Shown piece by piece: positions 44,993 through 60,316 of a stretch of DNA of 64,000 nt. Position numbers and translations under genes: made by a program. A model generated the notes under the pieces. It saw nothing but the letters and a program-made list of their open reading frames with translations, ran no database searches and was not told the origin of the DNA. Location of the stretch: positions 1,674,001 to 1,738,000 of the forward strand of contig NZ_JAGING010000001.1 in assembly GCF_017875835.1 (NCBI RefSeq). The letters run 5' to 3'. Each line of letters begins with the position of its first letter. Positions within the stretch are counted from its first letter, which is position 1. This stretch comes from Psychrobacter sp. PL19. Lineage in GTDB: Bacteria > Pseudomonadota > Gammaproteobacteria > Pseudomonadales > Moraxellaceae.

Positions 44993-45149
44993 TACGTTGT
45001 CCCTAACTGTTTTAGTTATTGTGATTTAGATACTGTCAATATACCATTCTAAGTAGCTTCATAAAACCAAGTCTACCAAAAATACGACACTTATGGATAT
45101 CAATCACTATCTAAACACTGACCCCTGATTTACTCACTTACCGCCTAAT

Positions 45150-45429
45150 ATGTAAACACTATTGGCAGACATAATTGTACTCAAAACATATCAAAAGGGC
45201 CAAATGACTCAAGCTATCGGTGACGACGCTATAGTACTGCATTTTGTCTAGTAGTGACTGGTTTGGTGAAATATTAATTATAGATGATAATCCCCAGACC
45301 CATGATGTGTGGACCATGAATGAGGTTAACCTCATTCGTATCTCTAAAAATGCGGTTGTTAATTTTGCTCAATCACACCCTATTTTGTTGCAAGTATCTG
45401 ACCCAATTGAGTGCTTTGATAGCAAATAA
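45150..45429 (+). pseudogene. Frameshifted Crp/Fnr-family regulator fragment
   Basis: Reading two frames in turn gives a cyclic-nucleotide-binding-like domain. In frame one, about 45156-45252: LADIIVLKTYQKGQ then AIGDDAIVLHFV before a TAG. In frame two, from about 45244: SSSDWFGEILIIDDNPQTHD and LIRISKNAVVNFAQSHP, then stop at 45429. WFGEI followed by a THD segment is characteristic of the beta-roll of Crp/Fnr regulators. The N-terminal strands are reduced and the helix-turn-helix is absent. It is a relic, and lies about 600 bp upstream of the rhodopsin gene. Homology is by eye only. Confidence 0.55.
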
Positions 45430-45598
45430 AAATAATTTTAGTGCACAAGTATATAAACGAGACGGCAACCTTCCTAGTCCATTATACTCGTATCAATCCT
45501 GATTAAGGACGTCACCTTTAAGCCTTTATTATGAACATCAGCACCATATTTTAAGTTAACCATTTGCTTACATTCTTAGATTAATTTGAGCTTAAATC

Positions 45599-45641
45599 GC
45601 CGTGATCGGGCTTCCTCCGATCTGAAATTAACGGCCTTTTT
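45599..45641 (+). terminator. Two-part stem-loop with T-run upstream of the rhodopsin gene
   Basis: Inner hairpin GATCGG/CCGATC (45604-45609 and 45617-45622) lies within an outer pair GCCGT/ACGGC (45599-45603 and 45631-45635), followed by five Ts. It may terminate transcription from the decayed gene or, if the rhodopsin transcript starts further upstream, attenuate it. Confidence 0.5.
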
Positions 45642-46028
45642 ATTCCAAAAGGTATCGTAATAAAAAGTACGATTATTATTTACAATAATCTGTTACAAAG
45701 TGGTAAGCTAGCTTAGACAAAAATTAAAACTTAAGTGAGCTTTGTACTTAACAACTTTGTACTTAGCAATAAGAAGCTTTTGTATTGAGTTCACTGTTTG
45801 CAAGATATGTTTATGACATATGGGCTTACCTGGTAAGGCACAAGTTTATTGGTTTGCAGCATGTAGTATCACTGAACTTTTCCAACTAAATTTGTGAATT
45901 TTTTGTTAGCATTATTATTTACGAACATAAGCGTAAACAGAAGCGGTTGGGGACAACACCAGATACATAACCCCTTAATATGATTGTATGAACAAAAATT
46001 TCTTTGAAGGACAAACGGAGAAAAAATT

Positions 46029-46856
46029 ATGACTACAAAAAATGCACATAATGAAACAAAAAGCTTCTCGTTGAGTCAGGTCAGTGTTAACTTAAAAATG
46101 ATATTCACCGTATTGTTTTTATCACTGCTTCCAAGCTTTGCAAATGCCGCAGCCAATTTAGCTGCTGACGATTTCGTCGGTATCTCATTTTGGTTGATTT
46201 CTATGGCATTAATGGCAGCTACTGTGTTTTTCCTTTGGGAAACTCAAAGTGTTACTGCAAAATGGAAAACATCCCTGGTAGTATCAGGGTTGGTGACCTT
46301 TATTGCGGCCGTTCATTATTTCTATATGCGCGATGTGTGGATAGCGACTCAATCCACACCTACCGTATATAGATATATAGATTGGTTATTAACGGTACCA
46401 TTACTAATGATCGAATTTTATTTGATCTTACGTGCTATTGGCGTAGCAAAGGCTGGAATTTTCTGGCGTTTGTTAATTGGTACTTTAGTAATGCTTATTC
46501 CTGGTTATATGGCGGAAGCAGGCTTCCTAAATATCACCGTAGGGTTTATTATCGGAATGCTAGGTTGGTTCTATATCCTGTACGAGATCTTCTTCGGAGA
46601 AGCAGGAAAAGCTGCAGAGCGCGAAGCCAGCCCAGCAGTCAAATATGCTTATAAAGCAATGCGCTGGATTGTAACCGTTGGTTGGGCAATTTATCCAATC
46701 GGTTTCGTACTTGGTTATATGACAGGTACTGCAGATCAAGATGCACTAAACATCGTGTATAACTTTGCAGATTTGGTCAACAAAGTCGCGTTTGGTTTGC
46801 TAATATGGTACGCAGCAACTAGTGAAAGTCAGGGTGTAGCAGAGAAGCACGTTTAG
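46029..46856 (+). CDS. Proteorhodopsin, light-driven proton pump
   Basis: 275 aa, seven membrane helices. A hydrophobic leader (about 24-41, ending FANA) is likely cleaved. Retinal-binding Lys 252 lies in DLVNKVAFG. Helix C has the proton-pump set Asp 118, Thr 122, Glu 129 (DTE), and His 96 is the proton-acceptor partner of proteorhodopsins. Position 126, equal to the tuning residue 105 of the green form, is Leu, so green absorption is expected. Phe 173 occupies the site that is Gly in carotenoid-antenna rhodopsins, so no antenna is expected. GGAG lies 8 nt before the ATG. It pumps protons outward on illumination, and heads a six-gene photosystem set. Confidence 0.96.
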   Translation: MTTKNAHNETKSFSLSQVSVNLKMIFTVLFLSLLPSFANAAANLAADDFVGISFWLISMALMAATVFFLWETQSVTAKWKTSLVVSGLVTFIAAVHYFYMRDVWIATQSTPTVYRYIDWLLTVPLLMIEFYLILRAIGVAKAGIFWRLLIGTLVMLIPGYMAEAGFLNITVGFIIGMLGWFYILYEIFFGEAGKAAEREASPAVKYAYKAMRWIVTVGWAIYPIGFVLGYMTGTADQDALNIVYNFADLVNKVAFGLLIWYAATSESQGVAEKHV

Positions 46857-46886
46857 TAATAAGCGTATACTATTCACTGTACTAGC

Positions 46887-46919
46887 GAGTTTGTGACTTC
46901 AATTTGGGGTCACAAACTC
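46887..46919 (+). promoter_or_regulatory. Perfect inverted repeat between rhodopsin and crtE
   Basis: 11-bp arms (46887-46897 and 46909-46919) around an 11-nt loop, without a following T-run. It could be an RNA stability element at the 3' end of the rhodopsin message or a processing or attenuation site upstream of crtE. Confidence 0.65.
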
Positions 46920-46942
46920 ACTCTCATATTAGGGTGATACCT

Positions 46943-47800
46943 ATGATACAAACTAAAGCGGTCGTATTACCAAAAGCATCTCTCATTCTGAAACAGTGTG
47001 AAGAAAACATGAATTTCAGATTAAAGGATAACCAACCCGCCCTATTTCACCTAAATAGCGGTGGCAATAGATCCCGTGCAAAGTTCTGTTTAGAAGCAGG
47101 CGTTGCGCTGCAATTGCCGATAAAATCGATAATTGCGTTAGCTTGTACTATCGAATTACTGCATAACGCATCACTAATACATGATGACATTCAAGACTCA
47201 GAAGCCGTGCGACGAGGCAGGCAGGCAGTGTGGAAAAAATATGGCAAATCGCATGCTATTTGCGCCGGCGATGTCATGATATCCGCTGCATACGGAGCGC
47301 TCGCTGACATTGGTTCACATCCAGCTCTAGCAGCACTATTGGGGCAAACACATCAAGCGGTCAGCACCACCATCAAAGGGCAATCACAAGACCTTGACGC
47401 CACAGATAATGTGAGTGAAAAAGAATATGAAAAAATTGCGGCTATGAAGTCAGGCCCTTTAATTCAACTCACCCTTTCTTTACCTCTGCTTATGGCAGAT
47501 ATGGGAGAGCACGTAGAAACGGCTCATAACGCATTACAAAAATTCGCTGTCGCCTATCAAATAGTGGATGACCTTGGCGATTGGCAGCAAGACTTGCAGC
47601 AAAACCACCTCAACCTTATCAATTTGTTAGCATTGAGCTGTGGTATTGACGAGGCCATCGATACTGCGCAAAACCGTGCGCAATATTTATTAAGACAGTG
47701 TGAAAAAGACCTAGCATTACTTCCAGCTAATTGTGCGGCATCAATTATTAAAGCTTCGCAGGCCTTATTGGCAAAAACGAGGGTAAGTGTTTATGAATAA
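46943..47800 (+). CDS. crtE: Geranylgeranyl diphosphate synthase
   Basis: 285 aa from the ATG at 46943 (AGGG 8 nt upstream; a TTG at 46904 lies inside the hairpin and is not used). It makes the C20 precursor of carotenoids. First aspartate-rich motif DDIQD at residues 81-85, second DDLGD at 209-213, with the basic RRGRQAVW segment between. Its stop overlaps the crtI start by 8 nt, indicating translational coupling. Confidence 0.93.
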   Translation: MIQTKAVVLPKASLILKQCEENMNFRLKDNQPALFHLNSGGNRSRAKFCLEAGVALQLPIKSIIALACTIELLHNASLIHDDIQDSEAVRRGRQAVWKKYGKSHAICAGDVMISAAYGALADIGSHPALAALLGQTHQAVSTTIKGQSQDLDATDNVSEKEYEKIAAMKSGPLIQLTLSLPLLMADMGEHVETAHNALQKFAVAYQIVDDLGDWQQDLQQNHLNLINLLALSCGIDEAIDTAQNRAQYLLRQCEKDLALLPANCAASIIKASQALLAKTRVSVYE

Positions 47801-49265
47801 GGCTGTTGTTATTGGGGGCGGATTTGGTGGCATAGCATCGGCGCTTCGACTGCGCGCAAAAGGCTACGACGTGGCTATTATAGATCAACGAGGACGTCTA
47901 GGTGGGCGTGCACAACAACATAAAATAGACGGATTTGTTTTTGACGCAGGGCCAACCGTCGTGACGGTACCTTTCTTATTCGAGGAACTCTTTTCACTGT
48001 TCGACAAAAAAATGGAAGATTATATCAATCTTGTTCCTGTTGAACCTTGGTATCGTTTTGTCTTCCCAGACCAGAGTCATTTCGATTATGGCGGCACCAT
48101 TGAAGACACCCTAGCCAATATTGACGAAATTGAGCCAGATGATAAAGTCGGATATATGGCCTTATTGGCGCAGTCAGAAGCCATTTTTGATGTTGGCTTT
48201 ACTAAGCTGTCAGATAAGCCATTTCATAAAATATCGACCATGTTGGCCCAAGTCCCGGCATTAATCAGGCTTAAGTGTCATCGTACCGTTTGGCAAATGA
48301 CGTGTGCCTATTTAAAAAATGATAAATTACGACAAGCATTTTCTATTCAGCCTTTACTAGTCGGCGGAAATCCATTTGCAACAACCAGTATCTATAGCTT
48401 AATACATTTTGTAGAACGCAAATGGGGCGTTCATTTTGCCATGGGTGGGACCGGTGCGATGGTCGACGGCCTTGAAAAATTGATGCGGGAAGAAGGTATT
48501 GAAATAAAGCTTAATACTAGCGTTAGCAGTTTAACCATAGAGGCCAATCGTATCACGCAAGTACACACTAACGATGGTTCTTTTTTATGCGATAAACTAG
48601 TCTCAAATATCGATCCAAAATTCTTATATCGACATCTTGTACCCAAAGAAAACCAAAAAATGGGGGCCAAACTAAAAACCAAACATGCCAAGTCATCAAT
48701 GGGTTTGTATGTGCTACATTTTGGCACCACCAAAAAGTACTCAGATGTAGTGCACCACACTATATGGTTGGGCAAGCGATACGAAGCGTTGTTGAGTGAC
48801 ATATTCGATAAAAAAATACTAGCAGATGACTTTTCTTTATACCTACATCGACCAACAGCAACCGACCCAAGCATGGCGCCCGAAGGGTGTGACTCCTTTT
48901 ACGTGTTAGCACCAGTCCCTAATAATCTGTCGGGTATTGATTGGGCAGCGAAAGAGCAAGAGTATGGCGATAAAATAATCGAGGCACTTGAACGCACTAT
49001 TATGCCGGATTTATCCGCCCATATCGTGCATCGTTTCGCGAAAACGCCTACAGATTTTGAACAGGACTTCAGCAGTGTAGAAGGCAGTGGATTTTCTATT
49101 GCACCATCATTTCAGCAATCTGCTTGGTTTCGCTTTCACAATAAGGCAGAAGGTCCAGAAAATTTATTTTTGTGCGGCGCAGGTACACATCCAGGCGCAG
49201 GATTGCCCGGTGTTTTATCATCGGCAAAAGTAGTAGACCGGCTCATTGCTCCAGCGAGTCAATAG
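47793..49265 (+). CDS. crtI: Phytoene desaturase
   Basis: 490 aa from the ATG at 47793 (a GTG at 47787 would add two residues). It is a bacterial CrtI that converts phytoene to lycopene with FAD. The FAD-binding motif VVIGGGFGGIASALRLR (residues ~4-20), the GGRAQQ and DAGPTVVTVP segments, and the C-terminal signature LFLCGAGTHPGAGLPGVL are present. crtB follows after 3 bp. Confidence 0.95.
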   Translation: MNKAVVIGGGFGGIASALRLRAKGYDVAIIDQRGRLGGRAQQHKIDGFVFDAGPTVVTVPFLFEELFSLFDKKMEDYINLVPVEPWYRFVFPDQSHFDYGGTIEDTLANIDEIEPDDKVGYMALLAQSEAIFDVGFTKLSDKPFHKISTMLAQVPALIRLKCHRTVWQMTCAYLKNDKLRQAFSIQPLLVGGNPFATTSIYSLIHFVERKWGVHFAMGGTGAMVDGLEKLMREEGIEIKLNTSVSSLTIEANRITQVHTNDGSFLCDKLVSNIDPKFLYRHLVPKENQKMGAKLKTKHAKSSMGLYVLHFGTTKKYSDVVHHTIWLGKRYEALLSDIFDKKILADDFSLYLHRPTATDPSMAPEGCDSFYVLAPVPNNLSGIDWAAKEQEYGDKIIEALERTIMPDLSAHIVHRFAKTPTDFEQDFSSVEGSGFSIAPSFQQSAWFRFHNKAEGPENLFLCGAGTHPGAGLPGVLSSAKVVDRLIAPASQ

Positions 49266-49268
49266 CTT

Positions 49269-50210
49269 ATGCAAGACGATCCAACCGCGTTATTAAAAAA
49301 ACATGGTAAATCGTTCAACTTTGCACGCCTGTTTCTAGGAACGGATACAGGCATGGCAGCGGCACGCTTATATGGTTTTTGTCGAATAGTAGATGACATT
49401 GCAGATGAGAGCCCCGATAAAGACCAAGCCAAGAAGCAACTTGAAGAGTTACACCATGCCATTCTCCAAAATAAAACCGAACATCCTCTGATTGGCGATT
49501 TTTTGCAGCTATGCGAAGAATATAATATTGACAGAAACAATGGCATTACGCTCATTCAAGGCGTGAGTGAAGACTTGTATCAACAAGCCTTGGAAACAGA
49601 ACAAGAAATCGTAAACTATGCGTACAAAGTTGCCGGTGTCGTCGGCTTAATGATGGCACCTATCTTGGGTGCTAAAGAAGAAGGCTATCAGTTTGCTGTT
49701 GACTTGGGTATTGGTATGCAGTTAACGAATATCGCCAGAGACGTTATGGAAGACGCTAATATGGGGCGTCGTTATATTCCAGGAGAATGGATAAATGCGC
49801 TATCAGCTGAGCAAATTGCTCTTGCACGGCTTGACGATCGTCAAAAAATACAGCATGCCATAGTAAAATTACTGAGCCTCGCTGAAGAGTATTATCAAAG
49901 CGGATTAGCAGGACTTTATTACCTACCTAATGGCAACAAACGAGCCATTGCGGTGGCAGCCTATGTATACAGACAAATAGGCCGAAAATTGCTAAAACAA
50001 GATTGTGAATACTGGCAAGGAAGAGTGTACATATCGCCCTTGCACAAAATAATATTGGCCGTACAAGCGCTATGGCACTTACGTATCAACAAATTTGCCG
50101 AAAAAGCAGTTAAGCATCGCAGCGAACTGCATACCCATCTCATAGAGTCACAGTCCGCTAGCCATAATTATTTGCATGAAAATATCCAGGCAAAGGAAAA
50201 AACTTTGTGA
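49269..50210 (+). CDS. crtB: Phytoene synthase
   Basis: 313 aa. It joins two geranylgeranyl diphosphates to phytoene. The two aspartate-rich motifs are DDIADE near residue 42 and DVMEDANMGRRYIP near residue 160. The start has no strong ribosome-binding site and follows the crtI stop by 3 bp, so it is probably coupled. Its TGA overlaps the GTG start of crtY. Confidence 0.95.
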   Translation: MQDDPTALLKKHGKSFNFARLFLGTDTGMAAARLYGFCRIVDDIADESPDKDQAKKQLEELHHAILQNKTEHPLIGDFLQLCEEYNIDRNNGITLIQGVSEDLYQQALETEQEIVNYAYKVAGVVGLMMAPILGAKEEGYQFAVDLGIGMQLTNIARDVMEDANMGRRYIPGEWINALSAEQIALARLDDRQKIQHAIVKLLSLAEEYYQSGLAGLYYLPNGNKRAIAVAAYVYRQIGRKLLKQDCEYWQGRVYISPLHKIILAVQALWHLRINKFAEKAVKHRSELHTHLIESQSASHNYLHENIQAKEKTL

Positions 50211-51409
50211 ACACCATAAAGGCTAAGCAAGCTGCTATTGATGTGGTAATCATTGGTGCTGGTGCAGCTGGCTTATCCCTGTTATTGGCTCTCGATGAAC
50301 ACAACTATACCGGCACGGTTAAAGTGTTAGAACGGCGAAGCGGCCCTCAGAACGACCGTATTTGGAGCTTTTGGCATAGTAATGCTGTGCCAAGTTATAT
50401 TGAAAGCATTGTTTCTCATAAATGGTCAACTTGGAGTCTAATGACACAGCAAGGCCACTATTTGATGGGTCATTCTTTTTATCAGTATTGTTCAGTAAGG
50501 TCAGAGCATCTCAGCGCGCTTGCTGTTGAAAGAACAAGTGCGCAGGCGAATATCGATGTACTCTTTAATTGTGATGTAGCCTCTATTAAAGCCGAGGATG
50601 ACGGGTTTATCATCACCACCTCAAGCGAAACCTTGATGGCCAAGCAGATTATTGACACTCGACCCCCAGCATTAAACAGCAATCACAAAGGACTACTGCA
50701 GTGTTTTTATGGTGAGGAAATCATGCTCGACGCAGCGATATTTGAACCATCCACCGTTAAATTAATGGATCAATTATGCCGCTCAGCGCTAGGTATTGAG
50801 TTTGTCTATATATTACCCTTCAGCGTCAACCATGCACTGGTAGAGTTCACTTGCTTTAGTATCGATATTATCGATAAAGAAACACTTAAAAAACGCTTCG
50901 CTCAAATAATCAAAAATATAGTCAAACAGCATGATTATAAAGTAGTGCGAACCGAACATGCGGTGTTACCAATGTATTTAATTAATCAAAATAGGCACGA
51001 GCCTCATAGCGATCTTATTTATGGCGGCATTGCAGGAGGTGCCATGCGAACGGCCACAGGATATAGCTTTCTCAGCTCCCAGCGATGGGCAAAAAAATGC
51101 GCCAGTGCATTAACACAGCGAACCAAACTAAACGCTGCAGCCCTTGCTCCTATCAATAGCCTATACCAGAAAATGGATGTCATTATGCTGAGAGTACTAC
51201 GCACTGACATGAAGACAGGTGTGACTATTTTTGAACGCATGTTTGAGCGAGTAAAAGCAGAGCGATTCGCGCGTTTTATGACCGAGCAGGCAACCTTACT
51301 TGATATCTTAAGCGTGATTTGGGCAATGCCAAAATGGGCGTTTTTGTGCGCCGCTTTTGGCTCTTTTTTTACCCGCACAGCGTCATCCAATAAAAAACGT
51401 GAGCGCTAG
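50207..51409 (+). CDS. crtY: Lycopene beta-cyclase
   Basis: 400 aa from a GTG start whose bases overlap the crtB stop by 4 nt. FAD/NAD-binding motif VVIIGAGAAGLSLLLAL (residues ~12-28), the lycopene-cyclase block RRSGPQNDRIWSFW (~44-57) and the IYGGIAGGAMRTATGYSF segment are present. It cyclises lycopene to beta-carotene. The length is usual for the bacterial CrtY type. Confidence 0.94.
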   Translation: MNTIKAKQAAIDVVIIGAGAAGLSLLLALDEHNYTGTVKVLERRSGPQNDRIWSFWHSNAVPSYIESIVSHKWSTWSLMTQQGHYLMGHSFYQYCSVRSEHLSALAVERTSAQANIDVLFNCDVASIKAEDDGFIITTSSETLMAKQIIDTRPPALNSNHKGLLQCFYGEEIMLDAAIFEPSTVKLMDQLCRSALGIEFVYILPFSVNHALVEFTCFSIDIIDKETLKKRFAQIIKNIVKQHDYKVVRTEHAVLPMYLINQNRHEPHSDLIYGGIAGGAMRTATGYSFLSSQRWAKKCASALTQRTKLNAAALAPINSLYQKMDVIMLRVLRTDMKTGVTIFERMFERVKAERFARFMTEQATLLDILSVIWAMPKWAFLCAAFGSFFTRTASSNKKRER

Positions 51410-51411
51410 TA

Positions 51412-52311
51412 GTGACAAAATTACGTTATACCCAAATTTATCTATATGTGTTTTTGTGCGCAATATTAATCACCTTACTAAATCCAGACATACCACAAAG
51501 CTATCTGATTATTGCTTTAGCGCTGGCTGTGACTGTATTGGGCTTACCTCATGGCGCGCTCGACTTTGCTGTTGCTAAATCACTACGACTGGTTGACTCG
51601 CTCAATGCTGCTTTGTATTTTATTACTGCCTATGTCGCTGTTTCCGCTCTCGCAATTATCTTTTGGATAGCCTTTCCTGCTTTGGGTCTTGCCTTGTTTC
51701 TAGCCGTGTCTATTTATCATTTTTCTGCTGATTGGCGAAATACTATGCCTAGTTATGCTGGCATAGGACTGGCGGCTGTGATTATTTGTGGCCCCGCTAT
51801 TTTCTATTCAGCAACATTATTGACCTTATTCACCTCGTTGCTGCTCAGTCCTGAAAGCGCCAAATGGATTATTCAAAGCATGCAGTTAGTCTTTGGTGTC
51901 GGAATCGTGATGTTCTTACACTTTGTCGTTAGTGCGGCACAAAATAAACGGCGAGACAAAAAGCAAGATAAACAGACTATTGGCAAATGGACTTATGCCG
52001 AATGGATAGCCTTGGTAGTAAGCAGCTTGATTTTGAGCCCTTTACTGCATTTTGCGCTTTACTTTTGCTTGTTGCATTCGCCCAAACACTTGCATGATGC
52101 GAGCGAAAATCTGAACATAAGCGTGCGCAAAGCGATCATCATTAGCTTGCCTTTCGTCCTGCTCACGCTAATACTGGCGATAGTCTTATTCAAATTAGTT
52201 GGTACGAGTGAGCTCAACGTTACTTTACTAAGATGGGTATTCATCGGTCTTTTTGGACTGACCATGTCGCATATGTTACTGATTACTCTGTGGCATCGTT
52301 CACAGCGATGA
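51412..52311 (+). CDS. blh: Beta-carotene 15,15'-dioxygenase (Brp/Blh family)
   Basis: 299 aa, eight or so membrane helices. It cleaves beta-carotene to two retinals, the chromophore of the rhodopsin encoded upstream. The family motif GLPHGALDFAVA (first iron-ligand His region, near residue 44), VSIYHFSADW (~98) and HSPKHLHDAS (~220) contain the His residues expected to bind iron. A GTG start follows crtY by 2 bp. Its last 12 nt overlap the end of the convergent idi gene. Confidence 0.93.
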   Translation: MTKLRYTQIYLYVFLCAILITLLNPDIPQSYLIIALALAVTVLGLPHGALDFAVAKSLRLVDSLNAALYFITAYVAVSALAIIFWIAFPALGLALFLAVSIYHFSADWRNTMPSYAGIGLAAVIICGPAIFYSATLLTLFTSLLLSPESAKWIIQSMQLVFGVGIVMFLHFVVSAAQNKRRDKKQDKQTIGKWTYAEWIALVVSSLILSPLLHFALYFCLLHSPKHLHDASENLNISVRKAIIISLPFVLLTLILAIVLFKLVGTSELNVTLLRWVFIGLFGLTMSHMLLITLWHRSQR

Positions 52312-52863
52312 TGACAGGCTTAGCTGATTTTTCTTTATGAAGTCAAAAACCATTGGAAACCAAGCCACAAACGCAGTTGGTTCGCAGTGAAGGAGTTTAA
52401 CTAGATCACGCTCTTTCCACCATTTAACATCCATCACTTCATCAGGATTTTGCTGCCATTCGATGTCATCTACATTAGCGATTACAATATTGTCTAATTC
52501 ATGTTCAATCATCTGGTTATCTAGCGGGTACTTATATTGAATCTGACCAATCGTAGAAAGATTCAATGCACTAGTAATACCCAACTCTTCAGCGACACGT
52601 CTTTGCGCTGCATCCTTAATGCCTTCGTTTGGCTGCGGATGAGAACAACAGGTGTTGGCCCATAAGCCGCCGCTGTGGTACTTGTGTAATGCTCGCTGTT
52701 GTAAGAGATACTCGGTATCTGCGCCTCGAGAACGTATGATCATCAAGGAAAAAGCAAGATGAAGTTCACCACGCAAGTGCGTTTCTATTTTTTCTGCATA
52801 GCCGGTTATTTCGCCTTTGGTGTTGACGAGTGTAAGGAGGTCGATGCCTTCAGTCTTATTCAT
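52300..52863 (-). CDS. idi: Isopentenyl-diphosphate delta-isomerase, type 1
   Basis: 187 aa from the ATG at 52863. A TTG at 52881 would add six residues; neither has an ideal ribosome-binding site. It balances isopentenyl and dimethylallyl diphosphate for carotenoid synthesis. The Nudix-type domain has the catalytic Cys motif NTCCSHP and the segment RRVAEELGI. Metal ligands are in LHLAFSLMI and WWKERD regions. It is convergent with blh, so it has its own promoter, and belongs functionally to the carotenoid set. Confidence 0.93.
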   Translation of the reverse strand: MNKTEGIDLLTLVNTKGEITGYAEKIETHLRGELHLAFSLMIIRSRGADTEYLLQQRALHKYHSGGLWANTCCSHPQPNEGIKDAAQRRVAEELGITSALNLSTIGQIQYKYPLDNQMIEHELDNIVIANVDDIEWQQNPDEVMDVKWWKERDLVKLLHCEPTAFVAWFPMVFDFIKKNQLSLSSSL

Positions 52864-53044
52864 TATATTAAAATACCTCAAACTACAGACAAGATTACCT
52901 AGAGTATCAGTATTTGCCTGTATTAACGAGACTAAAAATATGGTTCACTGCTTGGTTGTAAGCCTGCTGCTGATATTCCTCCCGAATGGCTGTGCAAAAG
53001 CTCTCCATGAGCATCAAAGAACAGCCTATTTGCGCTAAAAAAAA

Positions 53045-53221
53045 CTACTCACGCTTGTCGCTTAGGCGGATATACAGGATAGTCAGAGTAAGAATAATAG
53101 TAACAGGCACTAATGCCATGAGCGGAGAACCCGATAAAGCGGTCTCGCCAGCCACATAGACCAGCGCCGCAACCGCCGCAAATGCGCCTAACATGGTGAG
53201 TAGTTTGATTAATTTTTTCAT
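53045..53221 (-). CDS. Small membrane protein, two predicted helices
   Basis: 58 aa: a basic start (MKKLIKLLTM), helix one (GAFAAVAALVYVAG), a short loop, helix two (MALVPVTIILTLTILYI) and a charged end (RLSDKRE). AAGG lies 10 nt upstream. The positive N-terminus, the well-formed helices and the ribosome-binding site support a real gene, but no family is recognised. It lies upstream of idi on the same strand. Confidence 0.5.
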   Translation of the reverse strand: MKKLIKLLTMLGAFAAVAALVYVAGETALSGSPLMALVPVTIILTLTILYIRLSDKRE

Positions 53222-53313
53222 GAGCGATGTACCTTAATTTAACGAGTTAAACGGCTATTTTAATTTCTGATTTTCAACGCTAGTAAGTAAACCATTAGGT
53301 TTGGCAAATTTTT

Positions 53314-53526
53314 TTATTTGACGATTAAAGGCTGGAATTGCGTCACGAATTGCCCGTGTGACATTGCCTGTGTAGCACAGTCAAGAACCACTTCACTCAA
53401 ATCCGCTAAAGTAACACTAGGCGTATAAGAAGGTTGAACGCCGCCGATTTCAGCACTGGATTTCCCCGCCAAAAAATCACCGATTAAATGAGCAGGTGAG
53501 TGATGTTTCAAAAGTATGCTAGGCAA
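53314..53526 (-). pseudogene. C-terminal fragment of an FAD-dependent dehydrogenase
   Basis: 70 codons in frame, with PAHLIGDFLAGKSSAEIGGV and YTPSVTLADLSEVVLD, which match the C-terminal region of uncharacterised FAD-dependent dehydrogenases (COG2509 type, ~550 aa). The N-terminal nucleotide-binding part and the closing ESRTSSP segment are absent. The frame is preceded directly by a stop codon. It is a remnant next to an IS1-family relic. Confidence 0.65.
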
Positions 53527-53587
53527 TTAGAAGAAGGGTGACAGCCGCAGCAAGATGTTATATTTGAGGTTATGAAGACACAAATAG

Positions 53588-53758
53588 ATATCAACCAACT
53601 GCCCCGATTGCCACAATCCCAGTTTAAAGAAAAATGGTACAAAAAGCTATGGTCAGCAAAATTACCAATGCACAGACTGTAAACATCAGTTGATTGGCAA
53701 CTATGCCATTACCTATCAGGGCTATCACTCTAAAATGAAGGCAATAACTGCCGTTTAA
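53588..53758 (+). mobile_element. IS1-family transposase relic (InsA-like zinc ribbon)
   Basis: Open stretch of 56 codons ending TAA at 53756-53758. It reads CPDCHNPSLKKNGTKSYGQ, then QNYQCTDCKHQLIGNYAITYQ and GYHSKMK. The two CxxC pairs, the KNG segment and the NYQC spacing fit InsA-type proteins of IS1 elements. There is no start codon in frame, no InsB catalytic domain and no terminal inverted repeats were found. Confidence 0.7.
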
Positions 53759-53856
53759 GACACCGATTAAGGCGAGCGGTTAGGCAGACCTGTGCTTTTT
53801 CTAACAAGCTAGACAATCACTTTAAAATATTCAGTATGGTATTGTTTTATATTAAT

Positions 53857-53904
53857 TATGACTATGACTATGACTATGACTATGACTATGACTATGACTA
53901 TGAC
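53857..53904. repeat. Hexamer repeat, eight copies of TATGAC
   Basis: Eight perfect copies in a non-coding region between the IS relic and the SMR gene. A simple sequence repeat that may vary in length by slippage. Confidence 0.95.
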
Positions 53905-54267
53905 TATATCTGATGTCAGCATATTGTTTGAAGCACCGTCAAATATTTTAGTCTTTCTTAAAACTGTGCATGTCTTCTAAGATAACCGTAAATCTCTCAT
54001 AATGCTTACATATAACGAGCACAGTCCACCCAAAATATACGGCCACAGGTAAACACTCAGCCTGTAACTAACAATAATGATAAGAAGTGAATAGCGGGGC
54101 CTAAATGATAAAGGCACAAACTAGCCCTTCCAATTCTTCACAAAAGGCTATAAGATACCTTCCGTATGGTTTCTTTATAATAATCTATTAATACTGTTTT
54201 AGTTAATAGCGTCTTAAGTAGTAGCGCTGCGACTAACGTGAGCCCCTCAACGATAAGTACCTCAACT

Positions 54268-56804: not shown

Positions 56805-56881
56805 TGGCGAATCTTTAAGGTTTGTTTCCGCGATTATTTTTTAATGTCTGTTATCTAACTACTAAGATTGAAGAGGTTTTT

Positions 56882-57826
56882 ATGTCATCAACCATACCTG
56901 AATATGACTATATCATTGTCGGTGCAGGGTCAGCAGGAAATGTATTGGCCGCGCGCTTGACTGAAGATGCCGATATCAAGGTGTTGCTGTTAGAAGCGGG
57001 CCGTCCAGATCATCGACTAGATTTTCGTACTCAAATGCCTGCTGCTCTGGCGATGCCGTTGCAAGGGACTATTTATAATTGGGGCTACAAAACTGATCCT
57101 GAGCCTTATATGAATGATCGGGTCATGGACTGTGGTCGCGGTAAAGGCCTTGGCGGCTCCTCTTTGATTAACGGGATGTGCTATATCCGTGGTAATGCGT
57201 TAGATTTTGACGACTGGGCCAAAATCGAAGGCTTAGAAGATTGGAGCTATGCAGATTGTCTGCCTTATTTTAATATGATAGCTCTATGGAAATCATTAAA
57301 AGAAGAGGGCAATAAGCGCAAAGCCAGTACCATAGGTACGGCTAATGTGCTTAACAGTGGCAAAAGTTGGAAAGCGCGTTTACAACGTATTGTTAGCTTC
57401 CCTGGACATACTCAAGTTGAGCATTTTTTACAGACTATCGTATTACCTGCTATGACTGACGTTGAGAACGAGCTAAAAGCAGGGGGATTGAACACCGTTT
57501 TAATCGTCCGTAATCCTGAGCATATTGGTCAAGATATAGATCAAGGTAAGGGCCAGGACAGCGTTCACATAGAAGGTCTAAAACTACAGGTCGGCCATAG
57601 CGAGCAAGATGACTTTATTTACGAAGTCAATTTGGTGAAAGCTGAGCGACCCAATTTCACGCTTAATACTTCCAGTAAGTTGGCTGAGTATTATTACCGA
57701 GCCGAGGTGTTCTTAAGTGATGGTTCGCAAGAATATGATCTGGTTGGCTACACTAAAGAGCAAGTGTTGGTCGATATTCTCAATCAGTATGAGCGTCATA
57801 TGCAGTATCTACATCTAGAACGCTAG
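56882..57826 (+). pseudogene. In-frame fusion of BetA N-terminus and BetT (BCCT) C-terminus
   Basis: 314 aa from the ATG at 56882 (AGAGG 5 nt upstream). Residues 1-130 are the start of choline dehydrogenase BetA: FAD motif [56 protein letters not shown]. From about residue 131 it becomes the last helix end and cytoplasmic tail of a BCCT transporter of BetT type: [59 protein letters not shown] deletion of about 1.3 kb of betA and most of betT would yield this join near base 57272. It cannot have dehydrogenase or transport activity. Whether it is expressed is unknown. Confidence 0.85.
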
Positions 57827-59164: not shown

Positions 59165-60316
59165 ATGAGTATTGAACACTTTACCCCCAACTGGATGACC
59201 GAAGAACATCAAATGGTACACGATAGCGCCCTGAAAATGTTTAAATCATGGGATCCAAAAGACGAACAGTGGCGTGAAAATGGCCAGATTGATCGCGCTG
59301 CTTGGGAAGAAGCTGGCGCAAATGGCTTTTTGTGCGCCTCAATGCCAGAAGAGTACGGTGGCGGCGGTGGCGATTTTGGTCATGAAGCGGCGCTTATTTA
59401 TGCTCAAGCTGAAGCCAACCAAGCCGGGTTTGGTGGTTTGGTTCATTCAGGGATCATCGCGCCTTATATTTTGAACCATGGTACTGAAGAGCAGAAAAAA
59501 GAATGGCTGCCTAAAATGGCCACTGGCGAGCGAATCGGTGCTATTGCTATGACTGAGCCTGGTACAGGGTCAGATCTACAAAATATCAAAACGTTCGCAG
59601 TAAAAGATGGCGACGACTATATTATCAATGGTTCAAAAACCTTTATTACCAATGGTCAGCATGCCAATCTTATTATTGTGGCTTGTAAAACCGATCGTGA
59701 AAAAGGGGCACAAGGTGTATCGCTTATTGTGGTCGAAACTGAGAATTCTCCAGGCTTCGAGCGCGGTAAAAAGCTAAAAAAACTCGGTTTGGCATCACAA
59801 GATACCTCTGAGTTATTCTTTAGTGATATGCGGGTACCACAAAAGAACTTGTTAGGTACTATGGAAGGTCTGGGATTCATGCAGCTTATGCAAGAGTTAC
59901 CACGTGAGCGTCTGATTATTGCCTTGACTGGTGTGGGTGCTATGAAGTTGGGTATCGAGTTAACCCTTGATTATGTCAAGCAACGCGAAGCATTTGGTAA
60001 GCCAATCTGGAAATTCCAGAATACTCGCTTTAAGATGGCTGAGTGCTATGCAGACTATCTAGCATCACGCAGTATGTGTGACGCCGCTATTGATGCTCTG
60101 TTAGAGAACAAGCTTTCTGTACCGCATGCTTCATTGATCAAATACTGGGTCACAGAAAAACAGTGTGAAGTTTTAGATGAGTGTGTTCAGCTGTTTGGTG
60201 GCTATGGTTATATGTCGGAGTATCCAATTGCCCGTATATACGCTGATTCTCGAGTGCAAAAAATCTACGGTGGCACTAACGAAATCATGAAAGAGCTCGC
60301 GTCACGATTCATGTAA
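59165..60316 (+). CDS. Acyl-CoA dehydrogenase, long-chain type
   Basis: 383 aa. It introduces the 2,3 double bond of acyl-CoA using FAD and passes electrons to ETF. Signatures are MTEPGTGSDLQNIKT (residues ~136-150) and QLFGGYGYMSEYPIAR, with YGGTNEIM near the end. The usual catalytic Glu of medium-chain enzymes is Gly here (YGGT). Instead Glu 248 in ELPRERL corresponds to the catalytic base of long-chain and isovaleryl-type enzymes. It is first in a plus-strand row with thiolase and a FadB-like gene. Confidence 0.92.
   Translation: MSIEHFTPNWMTEEHQMVHDSALKMFKSWDPKDEQWRENGQIDRAAWEEAGANGFLCASMPEEYGGGGGDFGHEAALIYAQAEANQAGFGGLVHSGIIAPYILNHGTEEQKKEWLPKMATGERIGAIAMTEPGTGSDLQNIKTFAVKDGDDYIINGSKTFITNGQHANLIIVACKTDREKGAQGVSLIVVETENSPGFERGKKLKKLGLASQDTSELFFSDMRVPQKNLLGTMEGLGFMQLMQELPRERLIIALTGVGAMKLGIELTLDYVKQREAFGKPIWKFQNTRFKMAECYADYLASRSMCDAAIDALLENKLSVPHASLIKYWVTEKQCEVLDECVQLFGGYGYMSEYPIARIYADSRVQKIYGGTNEIMKELASRFM

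Follow-up and report, generated by a model that had tools for sequence, protein, structure and literature searches.

Gene clusters of the proteorhodopsin (PR) type have been described from marine bacteria, among them the chromosomal PR cluster of Vibrio campbellii BAA-1116, which is flanked by transposases and is reported as laterally acquired (PMC3380642). An earlier note on the DNA studied here, made from its letters alone, had remarked that such units are known from marine bacteria, in agreement with this precedent. The DNA in question is a stretch of 64,000 nucleotides from Psychrobacter sp. PL19 (Moraxellaceae; contig NZ_JAGING010000001.1, positions 1,674,001 to 1,738,000), hereafter the window. 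It carries a PR gene, six genes for making retinal and, beyond them, an unlisted gene for a 58-residue membrane protein. Taken as a whole, the locus is very probably an acquired, self-contained photosystem that moved as one block, with the small protein as a candidate accessory.

To begin with, the product of the PR gene (46029..46856, + strand), of the green-absorbing proton pump type, scored 164.9 bits against the seven-helix opsin family PF01036 (Bac_rhodopsin; cut-off 24.6 bits, E 2.6e-48). Its residues 44-274 matched a solved microbial rhodopsin, followed in the ranking by solved PRs (E down to 1.4e-83). The residues H96, R115, D118, L126, E129 and K252 were found, which we take to be H75, R94, D97, L105 (green), E108 and K231 in green PR numbering; K252 would then be the retinal lysine, D118 the proton acceptor, E129 the proton donor and L126 the site of green/blue tuning. 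After a spacing of 86 nt, five genes follow on the same strand: crtE for geranylgeranyl diphosphate synthase (46943..47800; PF00348, E 9.5e-40, with DDIQD and DDLGD motifs), crtI for phytoene desaturase (47793..49265; TIGR02734, 540 bits against a cut-off of 238), crtB for phytoene synthase (49269..50210; PF00494, E 4.8e-58), crtY for lycopene beta-cyclase (50207..51409; PF05834, E 2.2e-51) and blh for beta-carotene 15,15'-dioxygenase (51412..52311; TIGR03753, 144 bits against a cut-off of 95; PF15461, E 2e-54). The gene idi, for a type 1 isopentenyl-diphosphate isomerase (52300..52863, - strand; NF002995, 145.6 bits against a cut-off of 127), converges on blh, the two ends overlapping by 12 nt. 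ATG 47793 is the likelier start of crtI, and ATG 46943 that of crtE, since AGGG stands 5' of this ATG and the TTG at the start of the frame falls within a hairpin. The earlier note's account of a PR with all key residues beside its retinal enzymes, and of a convergent idi next to five genes on one strand, thus agrees with the gene calls, coordinates, family matches and residue check. Its overlaps of 2-8 nt hold for crtE/crtI (8 nt) and crtB/crtY (4 nt), but crtI/crtB and crtY/blh are separated by gaps of 3 and 2 nt, respectively.

Judged from their sequences, all seven photosystem genes are intact, with no sign of decay. Against 19 homologues, departures at invariant columns amounted to 3 of 135 in PR, 1 of 45 in crtE, 3 of 182 in crtI, 1 of 53 in crtB, 0 of 33 in crtY and 0 of 28 in blh, and idi departed at 1 of 46 against 14 homologues. 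The departing columns held mostly conservative changes and were the same ones changed in the Antarctic Psychrobacter sp. TAE2020 (G310), with which the ratio of nonsynonymous to synonymous divergence (dN/dS) was at most about 0.2 in each of the seven genes. The retinal-synthesis genes are thus all adjacent and intact, as in a PR-crtEIBY-blh cluster. Both Psychrobacter PRs have Phe at residues 166, 226 and 246, where the 19 homologues have invariant Tyr, Tyr and Leu, respectively. Residue 246 lies two positions before D248, presumably the counter-ion aspartate, and this Phe may affect colour or kinetics.

Relatives were searched in 348 Moraxellaceae genomes, 105 Psychrobacter genomes and 395 Alteromonadaceae genomes. 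Among the Moraxellaceae, a rhodopsin above the Pfam cut-off was present only in the window genome and in TAE2020 (two further matches fell below this cut-off and were left out of the count). The segment common to both extends beyond the 46029-52863 of the earlier note, from 45655 to 53284, includes the gene of the 58-residue protein and is 85.6% identical in DNA over 7.7 kb. In TAE2020 (locus L005) it has different neighbours, which we take to resemble serpin genes, and hence lies at a different chromosomal site. Moreover, idi was found in 2 of the 105 Psychrobacter genomes, precisely the two rhodopsin carriers, and therefore arrived with the block. The gene order with convergent idi is shared by the window, TAE2020 and 12 Alteromonadaceae loci. 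Of 80 loci (the best 80 of 404 relatives), 47 had all six genes, and the top 30 of these by hit order entered the trees together with the window. The trees were built by quick searches, with support only from the Shimodaira-Hasegawa-like approximate likelihood ratio test (SH-aLRT). The Psychrobacter pair was supported at 99 in the PR tree and 100 in the concatenated crtEIBY-blh tree, within a seven-row set shared with Glaciecola and Paraglaciecola and supported at 96 and 100, respectively. Warnings from the tree program concerned some long terminal branches and, in the crtEIBY-blh tree, also rows with unusual composition and an uncertain grouping of Idiomarina L022 with the 28 rows that contain the window; no row of the seven-row set drew a warning for either branch length or composition. 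The gene trees thus conflict with host taxonomy, placing the Psychrobacter pair inside the Alteromonadaceae. These results support acquisition of the block from a member of the Alteromonadaceae close to Glaciecola/Paraglaciecola, and its carriage between Psychrobacter lineages as one unit.

Synonymous divergence (dS) between the window and TAE2020 was calculated to place this movement in time. A total of 28 window genes were tried, of which the seven block genes and 17 others had a counterpart, sought in the fetched stretches of TAE2020 rather than in its whole genome; an aldolase gene, sugE and betI (no counterpart) and betB (only a 35% paralogue) were dropped. All seven block genes showed dS values of 0.22-0.66, below those of all 17 others (0.91 to saturated), and the block copies therefore separated after the species split. 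These values indicate that the block moved after the two Psychrobacter lineages diverged, though not very recently. Hence, the fairly recent arrival suggested by the earlier note stands relative to the species split only, as the copies differ by the dS given and the G+C content of the window's block matches its surroundings. A block ancestral in Psychrobacter, lost nearly everywhere and relocated within the genome of one carrier, would also leave two species with the same block and the same extra gene. However, this explanation is already disfavoured and is, in our view, very improbable, given the low dS in all the block genes of this genome pair, the two carriers among 105 genomes and the differing loci. 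The earlier note had named a block at the same locus in most relatives, with congruent trees, as the sign of ancestry. The block was not at that locus in most relatives, and acquisition, the arrival suspected in the earlier note, is supported by the rarity of carriers, the differing loci, the trees, the distribution of idi and the dS values.

On the other hand, instead of one Psychrobacter lineage receiving the block from the other, each may have obtained it separately, from unsampled Alteromonadaceae that were close relatives of one another. The different loci agree with this, and the dS of the block leaves time for separate events. Furthermore, the remnants of the IS1 family of insertion sequences found on the same side of both blocks are only 75% alike, compared to 83-85% between the window remnant and copies in a further genome (G324), and they therefore look separately gained. 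Independent uptake is nonetheless rather less likely than not, since the two copies are by far each other's nearest, with a path of 0.13 between them in the crtEIBY-blh tree compared to 0.56 to the next row.

The flanks were compared with G324 and G326, the genomes nearest to the window by these regions, neither of which had a rhodopsin match. The aldolase gene of the left flank and the sugE-betI-betB genes of the right flank lie about 115 kb apart in G324 and on separate contigs in G326; the whole neighbourhood is therefore a mosaic shaped by rearrangement, in which no simple empty site could be demonstrated from these two genomes. Relative to G324/G326, the aldolase, sugE, betI and betB genes showed dS of 0.23-0.46, compared to 0.51 upward for other genes, so that the flanks were exchanged too. 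The block would have entered between junction intervals at about 45356 to 45655 on the left and 53284 to 53946 on the right, where the only mobile trace is one IS1-family remnant (53500..53870, strand not assigned) that lacks about 400 bp of its middle; fuller copies exist in G324, and the transposase of the copy at L213 matched PF03400 (E 2.4e-26). As for possible vehicles, a plasmid was rejected, as the 8 plasmid records found were all below 60% identity and none covered 80% of PR. No phage record matched, and the one matching stretch in viral_contigs returned no locus. Beside the aldolase gene lies a decayed Crp-type regulator (45091..45440, approximate limits, + strand), whose relative in L114 has cNMP_binding and HTH_Crp_2 domains. 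It was considered as an insertion mark and rejected, because it is also truncated in G326, in which no rhodopsin matched. The earlier note was thus right that the flanks are decayed, and they are also rearranged, but this is poor evidence of arrival. Some points weigh against acquisition of a working photosystem. Foreign base composition is uninformative as evidence of transfer, the G+C content being 42.9% in the block and 43.3% in the rest of the window. No clear flanking direct or inverted repeats were found, only weak pairs, with no search aimed at integrases, and outward proton pumping is a prediction from the genes.

Beyond idi, an unlisted open reading frame (53045..53221, - strand), reached by homology to TAE2020, encodes the 58-residue protein. 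AlphaFold2 modelled it as a confident helical hairpin of helices 2-29 and 33-57, with a mean predicted local distance difference test (pLDDT) score of 89.9. It is 76% identical in TAE2020 (dS 0.36, dN 0.13), and AAGG stands upstream of the gene in both genomes. The protein is conserved in PR loci of Paraglaciecola, Aliiglaciecola, Alishewanella and Glaciecola, its conserved residues including A24, P39 and L44. Because an iterated profile had absorbed distant hits into its seed, the search was repeated with a seven-sequence profile. Among the Alteromonadaceae, the protein was found in 13 of 395 genomes (E 1e-6) and rhodopsin in 27 (E 1e-10), and all 13 were among the 27. Both searches used the same draw of 395 genomes, and the listed genomes agree, neither listing being complete. 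No genome of this sample without a rhodopsin match had the protein at E 1e-6, and the probability of such an overlap by chance, ignoring kinship, was 2.7e-17. In the genus of G356, three of 22 genomes had the protein, all three with rhodopsin. Among the 348 Moraxellaceae there were six matches at E 0.01. Those of the two PR genomes alone were full-length and strong (8.8e-31 and 4.0e-30); four further genomes gave partial matches (E 9.6e-4 to 7.8e-3). Because of this strict co-occurrence, we infer that the 58-residue protein would be an accessory factor of PR in this lineage.

Alternatively, the two-helix gene may be a passenger that shares the ancestry of the cluster and is unrelated to PR, which is rather less than an even prospect, though a serious one. 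Most members come from one PR-cluster lineage, as a passenger would. The gene was, however, retained through transfer, is absent at E 1e-6 from sampled genomes without a rhodopsin match, and still co-occurs with PR in varied placements. It lies at most 9 kb from PR in 10 of the 13 genomes: in seven it precedes the rhodopsin match by about 0.4-0.65 kb, and in three it is about 6 kb downstream, beyond idi in both loci read (L009 and L010). In the remaining three it is unlinked, 95 kb (G349) or 119 kb (G350) from PR or on another contig (G351). Against an accessory role, 14 of the 27 rhodopsin-bearing Alteromonadaceae genomes lack the protein at E 1e-6, which also speaks for a passenger, and therefore PR can do without it. 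In the same direction, shared ancestry within a single cluster lineage accounts for some of the association; PR-adjacent seed sequences came from five of the 13 genomes, although the other eight all carry rhodopsin too; and the dN/dS of 0.37, which suggests constraint, comes from only 58 codons. Weighing these points, the more specific proposal of a dedicated PR partner in the Alteromonadaceae-type clusters, as a subunit or an assembly factor, co-transferred because PR works better with it and with possible analogues among the two-helix proteins of mainly alphaproteobacterial loci, is put forward tentatively, at just under an even chance.

Regarding the identity of the 58-residue protein, no Pfam or NCBIfam family exceeded its cut-off and none was found in PHROGs at E 0.01. 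Cytochrome c oxidase subunit IV (PF12270) was rejected, as the window protein scored 13.4 bits against a cut-off of 26.9; weak matches to PF12270 occurred in four of seven family members (best E 0.0058). With the seven-sequence profile, matches in Alteromonas were weak (E 0.004 to 2.3). A 54-residue gene of Alteromonas, divergent from PR, is nevertheless probably related to the family, with an hhalign probability of 87% over 54 columns. A distant second copy of the family (L239, L243) was present in G355, G350 and G351 at E of about 1e-6, all of which carry rhodopsin. Furthermore, another small two-helix family (MDTVLxGG...WHS) appeared just upstream of PR, in divergent orientation, in 21 of the 80 loci (L034-L036, L038-L040, L042, L043, L045-L048, L050-L054, L056, L058, L067 and L069), mainly alphaproteobacterial and including Pelagibacteraceae. 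None of the four members tested exceeded the cut-off of a Pfam or NCBIfam family for the whole protein, and homology to the 58-residue family was rejected (hhalign probability 2.4%).

Between PR and crtE lies a strong stem-loop (46884..46922, + strand) with a 15-pair stem and no T-run (z -6.8 against dinucleotide shuffles). A survey covered 56 rows, namely the window plus 55 loci, in which PR and crtE stand 44-400 nt apart. The best local hairpin was more stable than all 40 shuffles in 52, the exceptions being L016 (12 of 40 shuffles as stable) and L023, L027 and L048 (one of 40 each). At least six T among the ten bases after the hairpin were found in only five. Comparison with shuffled sequence accounts for base composition alone, and terminators are common in other intergenic regions. 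The element is likely one of mRNA stability or attenuation, which would probably let PR mRNA exceed crt mRNA. A scan for terminator-like sites gave 16 compared to 7.7 expected, mostly intragenic and without this hairpin, which has no T-run, and a promoter scan was uninformative (22 sites vs. 24.1 expected). As predicted from family membership and key residues, Idi would make dimethylallyl diphosphate, CrtE, CrtB, CrtI and CrtY together would yield beta-carotene, and Blh would cleave it to retinal made in situ. PR would hold this retinal at K252 and pump protons outward in light, perhaps aided by the 58-residue hairpin in assembly, oligomer formation or retinal loading.

Other features were observed on the right of the block. 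A short perfect tandem repeat of TATGAC, at 53857-53904, borders the IS1 remnant. At 56822-57826, the first part of a betA-like GMC oxidoreductase is fused in frame to a stretch that we take to be the end of a BetT transporter, and about 3 kb are missing within this fusion, at 57273-57281, relative to G326. Moreover, an acyl-CoA dehydrogenase gene (59165-60313) is 81% identical to that of TAE2020 and 74% to those of the otherwise closer G324/G326, a pattern suggestive of further gene exchange.

Neither PR in Psychrobacter nor a small PR companion was reported in the titles and abstract openings of open-licence articles in PubMed Central, where a mention within the text is possible. The photosystem is a unit of known kind, and the 58-residue membrane protein appears to be undescribed. 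This block adds Psychrobacter to the bacteria known to have taken up complete PR units, in a case where the donor lineage can be named and the timing given in relative terms. To our knowledge, PR is usually regarded as a photosystem made of a single protein. Across 743 genomes (348 Moraxellaceae and 395 Alteromonadaceae), no clear instance of the small protein came without rhodopsin; it is a candidate accessory subunit and in this respect outweighs the photosystem itself in importance. Compared to known systems, V. campbellii BAA-1116 and Vibrio sp. AND4 (L023, in the same order) likewise have PR with crtEIBY-blh on the chromosome. However, the Vibrio loci L021, L023 and L024 belong to Vibrionaceae hosts, lack the convergent idi (two have idi upstream and co-directed) and gave no match to the 58-residue profile better than E 0.39. 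The clusters of Glaciecola, Paraglaciecola, Alishewanella and Aliiglaciecola, nearest in the trees and of the donor-type lineage, share the order, the small protein and, in most, the convergent idi (in L011, idi was not found within the stretch examined); they differ in that the small gene precedes PR, or lies at some other place in the genome, in several of them. Finally, the same whole block, small gene included, is found in Psychrobacter sp. TAE2020 at another chromosomal site.

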